Assembly (NCBI RefSeq): GCF_038006045.1
Contig: NZ_JBBOUK010000001.1
Location: forward strand, 1,095,001-1,159,000
Source: Exiguobacterium sp. FSL W8-0210
GTDB lineage: Bacteria > Bacillota > Bacilli > Exiguobacteriales > Exiguobacteriaceae
Direction of reading: 5' to 3'
DNA length: 64,000 nucleotides
Positions within the stretch are counted from its first letter, which is position 1. Each line of letters starts with the position of its first letter. The position numbers were made by a program, and so were the translations under genes. The notes under the pieces were generated by a model. The model ran no database searches. It was not told where the DNA came from and saw nothing but the letters and a program-made list of their open reading frames with translations. This document shows positions 28,062 through 52,311 of this stretch, one piece after another.

Positions 28062-28302
28062 AACGAAAGATTGAGCGATGATGAAACCGAAGTAAAGACC
28101 ATCTCCCTGTTTCAGAGAGCACGTGGCGCTGCGAACGTGTACACAGATGGTGTTGAATTACAGTTTCTGAGCTTCTTGCGTAAGCGAGCGGAGCAAACCG
28201 TTATCCCAATCATGAGTGACTCAGTCGATGACTGGGTAATCAGGGTGGTACCGCGGCTTTCGTCGCCCCTGTCGAACGATACGTTCGGCAGGGGCTTTTT
28301 TG
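28062..28302 (+). promoter_or_regulatory. T-box leader, tyrosine-type specifier
   Basis: The T-box AGGGTGGTACCGCG is at 28242-28255. Stem I contains an AGTAA loop-E motif (near 28090) and the pairs GAAAC/GTTTC and ACCATCT/AGATGGT. These leave a specifier loop reading GAATTACA, with UAC (28159-28161) followed by the usual A. UAC is a tyrosine codon. The downstream hairpin GCCCCTG...CAGGGGC with six T (28265-28302) is the terminator that competes with the antiterminator. Uncharged tRNA-Tyr should switch phhA on. Confidence 0.88.
28265..28302 (+). terminator. Regulated terminator of the T-box leader
   Basis: Stem GCCCCTG-CGAAC / GTTCG-CAGGGGC followed by six T. Its 5' arm is shared with the antiterminator. 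Confidence 0.88.
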
Positions 28303-46196: not shown

Positions 46197-47187
46197 TCCG
46201 AACATGATCGGTCTCGTTCGAAATGAAGTGACGAAAATCGCTTCAAAACGTCGTTTTGCTGTCGTTGCGATCATTTTGATCGTCCTTGTCTCGATGTTTA
46301 CGTACGCACAGTACCGAGACATCCAGGAACAAATCAAAAAGCAAGGAACGCTCGATTGGCGGGTTGAGTTACAACAAGACATCGTCGACACGCAGAACCG
46401 TCTTGCTTCCAGCAGTATTCAAGATGAGTTCCGTCAGTTCCTTGAGTTTGACCTAAAACAGAATCAATATTATCTCGATAACGACATCAACCCGAACTAT
46501 CCGGGAGCCCCGACGTTCATCCGAATCTTCTTCTCGCAAGGATTGACGCTGATCTTACCGCTGTTCATCATCGTCATCATGGCGGATATCGTCAGTGGGG
46601 AGCAAAATGACGGAACGATCAAGACGCTACTGTCGCGACCAGTCCGGCGCTGGAAGATCCTGATGGCGAAATGGTTGACGGTGTTACTCTATACGTCGAT
46701 GCTGATGGCATTGACCGTCGCCGTCTGTTACGCGATATCCGGGATCGTCCTCGGCTATGACGGATGGACCGCACCGATCTTGACCGGGTTCCAAGCCTCA
46801 CCGAGCGGTACGTTCTCGACCGAGTTCGTGCATACGTTACCGATGTGGGAGTACCTCTTGATGGCCGTCGGTCTAGCATGGATCGTCACAGCTGTCGTCG
46901 GAACGATCGCCTTGATGGTCTCTGTTCTCGTCAAAAACACAGCGACAGGGATTGGGATCATGATGGCAGTCTTGATTTCCGGCACGTTACTGACGACACT
47001 CGGTTCAAGTTGGACGAGCTCGAAATATCTCGTCAACGTCAACTTCGGACTGATCAACTATCTCGATGGACAAGCACCACCGATCGAAGGGATGACGCTT
47101 CCGTTCTCCCTTGCCGTCCTCGGTTGTTGGACGGTCGCGGCACTAGTCGTTGCGTTCTGGAACTTCACACAAAAAGATATGTATTAA
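46189..47187 (+). CDS. ABC-2 type transporter permease
   Basis: A 332-residue membrane protein with six membrane segments, a long external loop between the first two (about 40-105), and DIVSGEQNDGTIKTLLSRPVRRWKIL just after segment 2, a mark of ABC-2 permeases. It pairs with the upstream ATPase to form a drug, peptide or lipid exporter. The TTG start is supported by GGGAGG eight bases before it. No sensor kinase pair is adjacent. Confidence 0.85.
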   Translation: MRNPNMIGLVRNEVTKIASKRRFAVVAIILIVLVSMFTYAQYRDIQEQIKKQGTLDWRVELQQDIVDTQNRLASSSIQDEFRQFLEFDLKQNQYYLDNDINPNYPGAPTFIRIFFSQGLTLILPLFIIVIMADIVSGEQNDGTIKTLLSRPVRRWKILMAKWLTVLLYTSMLMALTVAVCYAISGIVLGYDGWTAPILTGFQASPSGTFSTEFVHTLPMWEYLLMAVGLAWIVTAVVGTIALMVSVLVKNTATGIGIMMAVLISGTLLTTLGSSWTSSKYLVNVNFGLINYLDGQAPPIEGMTLPFSLAVLGCWTVAALVVAFWNFTQKDMY

Positions 47188-47192
47188 GACGA

Positions 47193-47226
47193 ACGGGTCC
47201 ACCTATAGAGGGGGACCCGTTTTTCA
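47193..47226 (+). terminator. Terminator after the ABC-2 transporter
   Basis: ACGGGTCC / GGGACCCGT stem followed by TTTT. Confidence 0.75.
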
Positions 47227-47751
47227 TGGATGAAGCGACAAACGATCGTATGTCTCGATTATTTTTTGATACTGAAGTTGTGTCGATAACGAAGCATCTA
47301 CTATGAGAATCGGGGAAATTGACCGGTCCATTTGATACTGGTGTTCTGCGAACGTACCGATCATCGATGGGTCCGTCGCCGTGTGATACGTCCGGCACCA
47401 GTCAAGGAATTCATTGGAGCCTGTAAAATCTGGGTATCGTGCTGCTTCGCGTGCGATGAGACGTTCCATCCGAACCGATTCGTCGAGCGACAGGAAGACA
47501 AGCAAGTCCCGATTGATGAAACCGTCCGGATGCCAGGCGAAGACAGAACCGGAGACGATGTAATCGTTGTAAGACATAAGATCTGCTTCATACATGGAAA
47601 ATCGCTCGGAGACGTCTCGCTTTTCAGTGAACGTCGTATCTTTCCAAAGATAATGGTCTGTATCAATCCAGGGAATCTGTTCAGCTTTCCCGATGAAGGC
47701 GCCCAGTGTACTTTTTCCGGTACCTGATCCACCAATGATTTGAATACGCAC
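47224..47751 (-). CDS. Small P-loop kinase (adenylate/shikimate kinase-like)
   Basis: A 175-residue P-loop protein. Walker A GGSGTGKS is at residues 7-14, then WIDTDHYLWKD, where acidic residues could bind substrate, and LIAREAARYP in a lid-like Arg-rich segment. It resembles proteins annotated as AAA_17 or topology-modulation/FlaR-like kinases; the substrate is unknown. GTG at 47751 is chosen since GAAAGGAG lies nine bases upstream. It is preceded by a promoter-driven, highly structured leader of about 190 bases, unusual for such a gene. Confidence 0.75.
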   Translation of the reverse strand: MRIQIIGGSGTGKSTLGAFIGKAEQIPWIDTDHYLWKDTTFTEKRDVSERFSMYEADLMSYNDYIVSGSVFAWHPDGFINRDLLVFLSLDESVRMERLIAREAARYPDFTGSNEFLDWCRTYHTATDPSMIGTFAEHQYQMDRSISPILIVDASLSTQLQYQKIIETYDRLSLHP

Positions 47752-47781
47752 GATAATCGGCTCCTTTCGAAATAATGTATC

Positions 47782-47932
47782 GGCACGCAGAACAGGCCCG
47801 GGCATGATGCCGGACCTGTCGCTTGGAAGAACGAATTCTTCCTATGTCGCCTCGTGCAAGCACAAGACATGGAATCGAGAGGCAGTGCCTCTAATAGGAA
47901 GCCGATGCAGGTCAGCTTCCGCGCTACGTACC
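47782..47932 (-). ncRNA. Unassigned multi-hairpin structured RNA or leader
   Basis: On the minus strand GGTACGTAG (47932-47924) pairs with CTGCGTGCC (47790-47782), closing a P1 stem. Enclosed in order are GGAAGC/GCTTCC, AGAGGC/GCCTCT, ATGTC/GACAT, GGAAGAA-TTCG-TTCTTCC, and ACAGG...CCTGT with a GGCAT tip. Two P1 pairs and one in the last hairpin are G-U only on the minus strand (C-A on plus), which fixes the orientation. A consensus promoter lies six bases before P1 and the kinase start about 30 bases after. I recognise no known riboswitch, 6S or SRP consensus. Confidence 0.6.
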
Positions 47933-47944
47933 AATCGTACTTTT

Positions 47945-47973
47945 ATCATACTGATTCCAAGAATTGGTGTCAA
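47945..47973 (-). promoter_or_regulatory. Strong promoter of the structured RNA/kinase unit
   Basis: On the minus strand TTGACA, exactly 17 bases, TATGAT. Predicted start near 47938. Confidence 0.8.
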
Positions 47974-48047
47974 ACCTGCTCGAAAGGGTTTACAAACCGT
48001 TCAAACCGTCAAAAGAGAGAATAACGATGACTAGAGGAGGAACGACC

Positions 48048-48140
48048 ATGGCAGATTGGGGCATCATGCTGACAGGCGTCGTCATTTGTGGGTGGTGCAT
48101 CTTTAGTGCCATTTATGACGATTTCATCCGTCGCGTATAA
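48048..48140 (+). CDS. Small hydrophobic protein, 30 residues
   Basis: Reads MADWGIMLTGVVICGWCIF...RRV: one membrane-spanning stretch (about 6-21) with two Cys, and a charged C-terminal tail. AGAGGAGG lies seven bases before the ATG, and a T-tailed hairpin starts 14 bases after the stop, so it has the punctuation of a real gene. No family recognised. Confidence 0.6.
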   Translation: MADWGIMLTGVVICGWCIFSAIYDDFIRRV

Positions 48141-49232: not shown

Positions 49233-49481
49233 ATGAAAGCGACATACAACATTCAGGACGTCTTTTTAAATCAATTACGGAAAGATGCAGTCCCGACAAC
49301 GGTTTTCTTAATCAGCGGGTATCAATTACGGGGGCTGATCAAGTCATTCGATAACTTCACGGTCATCTTGGAGTCGGAAGGCAAACAGCAGTTGATCTAC
49401 AAGCACGCGATTTCGACGTTCGCACCAGCGCGCAACGTGACGTTATATGAGCAAGAAGAGACACAAGAAGTCTCTCGCTAA
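49233..49481 (+). CDS. hfq: RNA chaperone Hfq
   Basis: An 82-residue Sm-like protein. Sm1 appears as [29 protein letters not shown] and Sm2 as [12 protein letters not shown] (the YKHA motif lies in the proximal site). It forms a hexamer that binds sRNAs and A-rich mRNA. Slightly longer at the C-terminus than B. subtilis Hfq. AGAGGGGG precedes the ATG; a terminator follows at once. Confidence 0.95.
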
Positions 49482-49958: not shown

Positions 49959-50930
49959 TTACAACAACGGTGTCAGTTCCTCGACCGCCTCTTCATAACG
50001 TCGGAGCGAGACATCCTTATAGAGGCATGTCTTCTGCAGACGTTCTTCCTTCGTCATCTCGTCCTGATATGTTTTCAGGATAAAACTGTTGCGTAACATC
50101 GACGGTGTCAAGATCCGTTTATTATCCGACCGTTCATTCAGCTGACGCATCATCTTCGTGATCATGACGATCGACAATTGCTTCGGTGCATTCTTACTGT
50201 AAACCCAGCGGAATGTCATCCGGGCGAAGTCGAACGCGACGAAAAAAGGGTCGGTACTGTGATAACGAGGACGGACCGGCTCCGGAATCGTCTTCAAGTA
50301 ACGCAACATGATATCTTGATCTTCCCGCTCGAGATGGAGCAGGTAGCGGTTGCCGAGTCGATCGTGGACGGTCATCTCTTGCTGGGCGAAATTGAGGTCA
50401 TGCATCTTCAAACCAATGATATGATGAACACGTAAGCCGTAGCGATAAAACAATCGAAGGATCAGTTCGTTTCGATCGATTAAAAACGGACGTGCCTTCA
50501 ATTGATGTTCCGTCAAGCCGCGATCAGATTGATTCGTCCGCACCAATTGCTCGTATTCCTTGAAGGAAGCGACGTGTTTTGCCGTTAATTCGTGCGTCGG
50601 TTGTGCGTATTCGATCAGCTTCGCTTTCGTTTGCCGAATCTGGTAATTGACTTGATTGATGACGGTGACGATTCGAGCGACCGTCGCTTGCTGGTAGAGT
50701 TTCTCTTCGATCAAGTACTCATTGATGAACGTCTTCCACGTCTCGATTGAAATCGCCTTGAAATCGTCGATCGTCTCGAGTGGTTGGTCGACATCGGTCA
50801 TATAGCGATGGACTTCGATGAGATCATAGCGATAGCGTCGGACGGTCGAAAGTTGCCGTCCACTTGTCGTTAGATAAAACAGGTAGCGTTCAATGAACTC
50901 TGGAAGCGTATACGACTGTTCGCGTGCCAT
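49959..50930 (-). CDS. Tyrosine recombinase-like protein with a degenerate active site
   Basis: A 323-residue protein with an N-terminal SAM-like core-binding region (about 10-100) and a C-terminal integrase-like domain. The first catalytic Arg is in YGLRVHH and the second in TPSMLRNSF. There the family's H-x-x-R reads S-x-x-R. The usual second His/Trp region is also altered (CLYKDVSLRRYEE), though a Tyr remains. It may bind DNA without recombining it, or be a divergent active enzyme. ATG at 50930 follows GGGAGG. It lies divergent to hflX. No phage genes or attachment repeats were seen. Confidence 0.75.
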   Translation of the reverse strand: MAREQSYTLPEFIERYLFYLTTSGRQLSTVRRYRYDLIEVHRYMTDVDQPLETIDDFKAISIETWKTFINEYLIEEKLYQQATVARIVTVINQVNYQIRQTKAKLIEYAQPTHELTAKHVASFKEYEQLVRTNQSDRGLTEHQLKARPFLIDRNELILRLFYRYGLRVHHIIGLKMHDLNFAQQEMTVHDRLGNRYLLHLEREDQDIMLRYLKTIPEPVRPRYHSTDPFFVAFDFARMTFRWVYSKNAPKQLSIVMITKMMRQLNERSDNKRILTPSMLRNSFILKTYQDEMTKEERLQKTCLYKDVSLRRYEEAVEELTPLL

Positions 50931-50999
50931 CGTTTTCCTCCCTTTCGTAATGGTGTTTCTTCCATCATAAACCGAACGGATGTTTCCTGTCCAAAAAAG

Positions 51000-51028
51000 T
51001 TCAGACGAACCGGTGGCTGTGGTATGAT
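51000..51028 (+). promoter_or_regulatory. Extended -10 promoter of hflX
   Basis: TTCAGA, 17-base spacer, TGG-TATGAT. The spacer end GTGGCTGTGGTA matches that of the miaA promoter. Confidence 0.6.
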
Positions 51029-51069
51029 AAGGGGCGCAGTACGTCTTTACTCGTGAAAGGAATGATATT

Positions 51070-52311
51070 ATGTCAGAACGCGTCATCGTCGTTGGTTGCC
51101 AGCTCCCCGGTGTCCCGGATCATGTCTATGAAGAATCGGTCGCGGAGCTCGAAGCACTCGTAACGACTGCGCATGGTGTCGTCGTCGGTCGTTTGGATCA
51201 AAAACGACAAGCAATTGACCGCCGTACGTTCATCGGAAAAGGAAAGGTTGAGGAACTCGTTGCGTTAGCAGACGAACTTGAACCTGATTTAATCATATTC
51301 AATGCCGAGGTCACGCCCGGTCAGATGAAGAATATCCGGATCGCCTTATCGGACCCGGAAGCCATCAAATTGATTGACCGGACGCAGTTGATCCTCGATA
51401 TCTTTGCTGGTCGTGCCCAGTCGCGCGAAGGGAAGTTACAGGTCGAACTGGCACAGATGAGTTATCTGTTACCACGCCTAGCCGGGCAGGGTACACAACT
51501 GTCACGTCTTGGTGGCGGAATCGGGACACGTGGACCAGGTGAGTCGAAACTTGAGACGGACCGCCGTCATATCCGGCGTCGCGTTGATGAGATCTCGAAA
51601 CAACTCGAGACATCCGTCGCGCACCGTGCCCGTTACCGGGAACGTCGCAAAGAGAACCAGACATTCCAAATCGCGCTCGTCGGTTATACGAATGCCGGTA
51701 AATCAACGATCTTCAACCGGTTGACACAAGCCGACACATACGAGAAGGATGAGCTGTTCGCGACGCTCGATCCGTTGACACGTCAAGTCGATTTGCCGGA
51801 AGGTGGTCAAATCCTCCTAACGGATACGGTCGGTTTCATTCAAGATCTCCCGACGAAGTTGATCGCGGCGTTCCGCTCGACCCTTGAGGAAGTGCTGGAA
51901 GCCGACTTGATCCTCCATGTCGTTGATGCGTCGAGTGAGCATTACTTGAATCAGATGCAGACGACGAACGATGTCCTCGATGAACTCGGTGCCGGTGACA
52001 TTCCGCAACTGGAAGTCTACAACAAGAAGGATCAATTGAACCGCTTGTTCACAGGTGGAAAACTGCTGATTTCTGCGCTTGACCCGCAGGATATCGAGCG
52101 CTTGATCGAAGAGATCGAACGGTCAATCAGCGAAATCCTCGAGTATCTCGAGATTCGCATTCCAGTTGACGGATTTGCCCATTACAATCCGGCGAAGGAA
52201 GTCATGATGAATTTGAAGGAATCGTTCGAAGAAGATGGTTCCGTCATTCTAAAAGGTTACTTGCGTAAAGATACGCGTCTATACGCGACATTGAAACAAT
52301 ACGAGGTGTAA
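51070..52311 (+). CDS. hflX: Ribosome-associated GTPase HflX
   Basis: A 413-residue HflX. The N-terminal GTP_bdg domain has KRQAIDRRTFIGKGKVEEL, the linker GGGIGTRGPGESKLE (a family hallmark, about residues 150-165) and a coiled coil. The G domain has GYTNAGKST, DTVGFIQDLP and NKKD. HflX splits stalled ribosomes, for example during heat stress or macrolide exposure. It is followed two bases later by ynbB, as in B. subtilis. Confidence 0.95.
   Translation: MSERVIVVGCQLPGVPDHVYEESVAELEALVTTAHGVVVGRLDQKRQAIDRRTFIGKGKVEELVALADELEPDLIIFNAEVTPGQMKNIRIALSDPEAIKLIDRTQLILDIFAGRAQSREGKLQVELAQMSYLLPRLAGQGTQLSRLGGGIGTRGPGESKLETDRRHIRRRVDEISKQLETSVAHRARYRERRKENQTFQIALVGYTNAGKSTIFNRLTQADTYEKDELFATLDPLTRQVDLPEGGQILLTDTVGFIQDLPTKLIAAFRSTLEEVLEADLILHVVDASSEHYLNQMQTTNDVLDELGAGDIPQLEVYNKKDQLNRLFTGGKLLISALDPQDIERLIEEIERSISEILEYLEIRIPVDGFAHYNPAKEVMMNLKESFEEDGSVILKGYLRKDTRLYATLKQYEV

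Follow-up and report, generated by a model that had tools for sequence, protein, structure and literature searches.

On the minus strand of the window (the whole 64,000-nucleotide stretch analyzed here), a P-loop kinase gene is preceded by a structured RNA, which we confirm as real. This RNA is probably a stand-alone small RNA (sRNA) of one Exiguobacterium group that acts in trans and whose locus received the kinase gene in a single lineage; a lineage-specific, trans-acting sRNA is the most likely reading of its role. A reading from the sequence alone had offered an orphan riboswitch, a protein-binding leader, or an independent RNA, and it is the last of these three that comparison favors, as the RNA has its own terminator and no kinase in 10/19 genomes of the genus.

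A DNA search placed the promoter and 5' core of the RNA at the same position in 19/19 same-genus genomes, and the loci, set side by side, have two forms, long (L001 to L009; n = 9) and short (L010 to L019; n = 10). In the long form, the whole RNA is followed by the P-loop kinase gene. The short form shares the promoter, 5' tail, and hairpins 1 to 3 with the long form and continues with a strong hairpin and a U-tract; in the divergent short form L019, one other hairpin replaces hairpins 2 and 3. Short-form RNAs span ~115 to 130 nt and consist of the 5' tail, hairpins, and an intrinsic terminator (10/19 genomes), the strong hairpin of which folds in all 10 cases. Behind the short-form RNA, the next gene is a convergent ABC permease, with no same-strand gene before it (10/19 genomes); thus, nothing lies downstream for the short-form RNA to control in cis. 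By sequence, these 10 genomes hold a promoter and a terminator of the RNA's own with no gene between them. The promoter lies 163 to 187 bases from the permease stop in the short form versus 792 to 793 bases in the long form, and in the window's own lineage the position of the terminator falls behind the kinase. Closure by a long-range stem (P1) and placement before a kinase, which the sequence-only reading took as defining, therefore do not define the RNA, given that in 10/19 genomes the RNA ends in its own terminator without a kinase. The parts of the RNA and its locus in the window are as follows.

47981 to 47994, minus strand: conserved, cre-like block 5' of the -35 element (sequence comparison)
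47945 to 47973, minus strand: promoter TTGACA-N17-TATGAT (consensus scan and conservation)
47779 to 47938, minus strand: RNA body, from the predicted +1 to the end of P1 (fold and sequence comparison)
47921 to 47938, minus strand: 5' tail (largely single-stranded in the folds of short forms)
47897 to 47920, minus strand: hairpin 1 with loop CCUGCA (loop identical in 19/19 genomes; covariation)
47878 to 47892, minus strand: hairpin 2 (covariation)
47870 to 47876, minus strand: unpaired GATTCCA (kept in 18/19 genomes, the exception being L019)
47849 to 47868, minus strand: hairpin 3, the last element common to short and long forms (pairing test)
47825 to 47842, minus strand: hairpin 4 with UUCG loop, long form only (fold)
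47791 to 47820, minus strand: hairpin 5, G+C-rich, long form only (fold; no U-tract behind it)
47779 to 47790, minus strand: 3' strand of P1, confined to the long form (one-sided changes only)
47224 to 47751, minus strand: P-loop kinase gene, flanked by hairpin 3 and the terminator position (family match)
47186 to 47224, minus strand: terminator-like hairpin behind the kinase (position before the permease stop)

The promoter proposed from the sequence was upheld: it has 11/12 consensus bases in the window and is conserved in 19/19 genomes. Because the scanned region contains two promoter-like sites versus a shuffle average of 1.6, the match alone is no evidence; the evidence for the promoter is its conservation in 19/19 genomes. 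From -36 to -1, spacer included, 0/36 columns vary among the nine long forms (L001 to L009) and 5/36 among nine short forms (L010 to L018), with the +1 placed from the -10 element. The spacer (47953 to 47973, minus strand) shows few changes across 19/19 genomes. A pattern search of the 19 genomes retrieved no second copy of it at zero or one mismatch; at exactly two mismatches, 47 further sites were found versus 0 for a reversed control pattern. The spacer also contains TGGAATC, an inverted copy of the unpaired GATTCCA (47870 to 47876, minus strand; 18/19 genomes). Farther upstream, the block at 47981 to 47994 (minus strand) is centered ~49 bases before the predicted start and agrees at 12/14 positions with a cre-like consensus; control by CcpA through this block is an idea only. 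On the opposite strand (48048 to 48140, plus strand), a frame for a 30-amino-acid hydrophobic small protein (MADWGIMLTGVVICGWCIFSAIYDDFIRRV) with a good ribosome site precedes miaA. A pattern search retrieved a similar frame of 30 to 31 amino acids in 18/19 genus genomes (L019 unmatched) and 19/19 sister-genus genomes.

The minus-strand sequence folds at -83.8 kcal/mol versus a shuffle mean of -62.2 (z = -4.74; 0/200 shuffles as good), and the plus strand gives a z score of -2.02 (6/200 shuffles as good), in agreement with the structured minus-strand RNA first proposed. In this fold, P1 encloses five hairpins, as described from the sequence, with the UUCG loop in hairpin 4 (present in 5/9 long forms). 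P1 itself is present, although with 12 pairs where 9 had been counted; its 5' strand is formed by nt 4 to 15 of the 5' tail (47924 to 47935, minus strand) in the long forms. Its end (47779) lies 27 nt from the kinase GTG (47751), close to the ~30 bases first estimated.

Covariation supports the hairpins shared by the two forms. In an unedited alignment of 16/19 cores that took in two pairs of hairpin 3 along with hairpins 1 and 2, two-sided changes were found at 8/17 pairs, and 99.3% of cells were paired. None of 500 shuffles, which ignore relatedness here as in the other covariation counts, was as high by either measure, and structures slid along the same alignment reached at most 3 pairs and 54%. 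Hairpin 1 contributed two-sided changes at 4/9 pairs and hairpin 2 at 3/6 (16/19 rows each), and, with the added shuffle controls, the covariation of both holds without hand edits. For the 10 short forms with the terminator included, 10/30 pairs were two-sided and 94.9% of cells were paired (0/500 shuffles as high), the terminator accounting for two-sided changes at 2/13 pairs. Hairpin 3, for which the gap was shifted by hand in seven rows and L019 has no alignable counterpart, was paired in 113/113 cells versus a shuffle mean of 73 and a highest value of 88. Two-sided pairs in this hairpin (5/8) were no more numerous than in shuffles (463/500 as high), the variation in both columns being so great. 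Among the nine long forms alone, 2/55 pairs were two-sided, both in hairpin 3 (21/500 shuffles as high), and there were no more pair types than in shuffles; thus, hairpins 4 and 5 and P1 lack two-sided support. The alignment of relatives accordingly bears out the proposed structure for hairpins 1 to 3, which covary, but not for the elements confined to the long form.

Within the nine long forms, the core is nearly invariant: 3/69 columns vary, and a fourth carries a one-base deletion in L007. In the kinase genes of the same nine genomes, 96/150 third codon positions are variable (first positions, 28; second positions, 15). Variable columns number 8/22 in hairpin 3, 14/66 from hairpin 4 to P1, and 12/73 in the upstream stretch among the long forms, versus 17/69 in the core, 17/22 in hairpin 3, and 29/73 in the upstream stretch among short forms L010 to L018; the upstream stretch holds the start of the small reading frame and is not a neutral yardstick. 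That the core stayed nearly fixed after the insertion would argue for a function of the core itself.

The kinase at the locus scores best against PRK06217 (116 bits, under the cutoff of 203) and resembles the DNA topology modulation family more weakly. Its Pfam matches, AAA_18 and SKI, are both under their cutoffs, and phmmer retrieved no solved relative at an E value of 0.01. At an E value of ≤1e-20, one such kinase was found per genome in 18/19 genomes (it is missing in G006), located at the RNA locus in the nine long forms and elsewhere in nine short forms. By eye, no such RNA lies within the 350 bases 5' of the nine kinase copies located elsewhere. Ahead of the permease stop, the hairpin behind the kinase lies where the short form has its terminator, although the stem letters differ, making the two equivalent by position only; its T-tract is weak in the kinase direction.

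Kinase and P1 partner occur at the RNA locus in one clade of nine only. In a tree of miaA from the 19 genus genomes and 5 of the 19 sister-genus genomes, the nine long forms form one clade (support, 100/100), and L019 falls outside the rest (support, 89/88), a placement that carries a long-branch warning. The simplest account would be one insertion of the kinase into the 3' end of a stand-alone RNA, behind hairpin 3 and ahead of the terminator. Hairpins 4 and 5 and the P1 partner may then have arisen with the insertion or arrived by it, in what we infer to be a single event. The direction, with the stand-alone RNA probably the older, rests on the place of L019.

A covariance model of the RNA (R1), used for the genus and sister-genus searches, retrieved 19/19 genus members at E values of 4e-13 or better, with one strong core copy per genome. 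In the sister genus, it retrieved 14 places at an E value of ≤1 in 8/19 genomes (best, 1e-5). The 10 places inspected by eye were rejected as gene-end hairpins followed by a T-run, of the AAGCCGAC...GTCGGCTT type. The place most like the tail and hairpin 1 (L094) lies directly behind the stop codon of a frame that is presumably thioredoxin-like. Thus, the 19 sister-genus genomes gave no believable copy among the 10 of 14 weak places inspected, and, by eye, the stretch before miaA holds no such RNA in 19/19 sister-genus loci. At the class level, under stricter filters, 9/250 genomes matched, all of them from this genus. A scan of a genome collection with the promoter pattern retrieved 10 stretches, 10/10 titled Exiguobacterium (among them E. 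sibiricum 255-15, E. antarcticum, E. undae, E. indicum, and E. flavidum). No viral contig matched the promoter pattern exactly, and plasmids gave no blastn match.

The claim that the RNA belongs to no known class also stood, as the Rfam covariance models, those for 6S, T-box, and SRP among them, gave no match over it. With Rfam 15, the 361 bases around the RNA gave none up to an E value of 10, and the loci of four relatives, searched to the same value, gave eight matches of 15.4 to 23.5 bits versus gathering scores of 39 to 60. At gathering thresholds, the sole match in the 64-kb window is a distant T-box leader (28069 to 28273, plus strand; RF00230; 120.3 bits). Also in the window, a frame at 49959 to 51086 (minus strand) matches the Pfam phage integrase at 26.9 bits versus a cutoff of 27.1 and adjoins a DUF2283 frame. 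One study gives numbers of computer-predicted sRNAs per Exiguobacterium clade (PMC10837837), and the RNA could be among them; another states that noncoding RNA reads were filtered out (PMC4247613). We found no description of the RNA in the accessible text of open papers on the genus, which give only computer-predicted small RNAs.

How might such an RNA act? A vegetative-type promoter would drive a transcript of ~115 to 130 nt, whose anatomy comes from comparison and covariation and whose transcription we infer. From 5' to 3', it would present an exposed tail, hairpin 1 with its fixed CCUGCA loop, hairpins 2 and 3, and an intrinsic terminator. To act in trans, the RNA would base pair by way of its 5' tail, its hairpin 1 loop, or both, perhaps with the participation of Hfq; an hfq gene lies nearby (49233 to 49481), and its nearness proves nothing about Hfq binding. 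In the lineage of the window, where the kinase separates hairpin 3 from the terminator position, the RNA would form the 5' part of a kinase-coding RNA. To judge from the fixed core, it probably still acts there, whether within the kinase mRNA or once cleaved near hairpins 4 and 5. We consider it somewhat short of an even chance that one transcript serves as both regulatory RNA and kinase mRNA, the nearly frozen core having been surrounded by additional hairpins and a closing stem. If this captured RNA exists, the level of the kinase would be tied to the regulation of the RNA.

Candidate partners of the two exposed segments were searched for separately. For the hairpin 1 loop region, 56 exact 10-base complementary sites were examined from 6 of the 19 genomes; none was common to all six, and those that were shared lie inside coding frames. 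The largest shared set (4/6 genomes) lies ~83 codons into the fetched stretch of a frame that we take to be S1-like. The set nearest a start that is shared by long and short forms (3/6 genomes: G002, G012, and G006) lies ~25 codons into a frame that is presumably a WalK-like histidine kinase. For the 5' tail, an 18-mer was searched with up to three mismatches, and the sole partner in 19/19 genomes was an 18-base site in a secY-like frame (L101 and L194 to L212; about 135499 to 135516, plus strand, in G000). This site is identical in 19/19 genomes and, by eye, could pair with the tail at 16 to 17 of 18 positions counting G-U. Within the secY-like stretch, 117/205 codons are identical in the 19 genomes; because the whole stretch is so conserved, conservation of the site is uninformative. 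These two limited searches (exact 10-mers in six genomes and an 18-mer with ≤3 mismatches) thus gave no convincing target, which lowers an antisense reading and keeps a protein-binding role as its main rival. Under that alternative, the RNA would be a sponge or ribonucleoprotein scaffold instead of an antisense RNA. Its compact, covarying hairpins, fixed loop, and fixed unpaired GATTCCA, together with the want of a convincing target site, are consistent with such a role, but no Rfam family of this type matches, and we regard it as unlikely.

The preferred trans-acting sRNA must also be weighed against a leader that acts in cis, or an orphan riboswitch, in which ligand sensing would switch P1 and so control the kinase. 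The RNA does precede the kinase in nine genomes, and the consensus scan of the window found no other minus-strand promoter between that of the RNA and the kinase start. P1 is the least secure helix of the RNA. Its pairing energy is matched by just 6 to 33 of 2,000 shuffles in seven of the nine long-form genomes, but by 156/2,000 in L008 and by 550/2,000 in L006, where it is no better than chance, and competing pairings rival it in 3/9 long forms (L005 to L007). Changes in P1 are one-sided only. The 5' strand is invariant in the long forms, but the same letters occur in short forms L010 and L011, which fold without such a stem.

Two further pairings proposed from the sequence are present in the letters but were not borne out by the relatives. 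An alternative fold between GACCTG in the first hairpin loop and CAGGTC in the last stem was rejected, as forcing it costs 12.3 to 13.7 kcal/mol in L001 to L004, L008, and L009 and 17.6 to 23.2 kcal/mol in L005 to L007. The CGATA/TATCG helix suggested to enclose the kinase ribosome site is, by eye, exact only in L001 and L002 (2/9 long forms) and is kept with G-U in L003; the ribosome site is predicted to be 49 to 70% unpaired. Across relatives, the RNA lies before a gene that it could control in cis in only 9/19 genomes, the other 10 having no same-strand gene before the convergent permease. Because the kinase-free form occurs in 10/19 genomes, and kinase and P1 are found in one clade, an orphan riboswitch for the kinase is unlikely as the original role, and we consider a ligand-sensing leader improbable overall. 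The apparent riboswitch-type leader in the window is probably a converted small RNA.

Two further alternatives find little room beside a trans-acting sRNA. In the first, the terminator would decide whether antisense RNA enters the convergent ABC permease gene. The closeness of that gene in the short form suits such a read-through regulator, but the strong terminator hairpin in all 10 short forms does not, nor does the core that stayed fixed over the far longer distance of the long form, and we give the idea very little credence. A short coding region in place of an RNA gene is more improbable still: an ATG overlaps GATTCCA in 9/9 long forms and in short form L013, but it is absent from 9/10 short forms and, by eye, has no well-placed ribosome site before it, and hairpin 3 varies by base-pair swaps.

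If the trans-acting sRNA is accepted, the locus adds a small-RNA family without an Rfam entry to a genus for which the open papers searched gave only computer-predicted small RNAs. It would also provide a before-and-after case in which a small RNA became an mRNA leader by gene insertion. As a caution, a leader that is closed by P1 and precedes a gene can have been converted recently from an unrelated RNA.

Compared with bacterial intergenic trans-acting sRNAs that end in an intrinsic terminator, the Exiguobacterium RNA is alike in having a promoter of its own, a short transcript rich in hairpins, a U-tract in its terminator, and an exposed 5' tail and loop; it differs in matching no Rfam family. 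With orphan riboswitch candidates, it shares the P1-closed multihairpin fold before a gene in the window, whereas in 10/19 genomes it has no downstream same-strand gene. Finally, it resembles regulatory RNAs that derive from mRNA 5' regions, since in nine genomes it forms the 5' portion of what is likely a kinase transcript. Here, however, the stand-alone RNA appears to be the older partner, to which the coding part was probably added.
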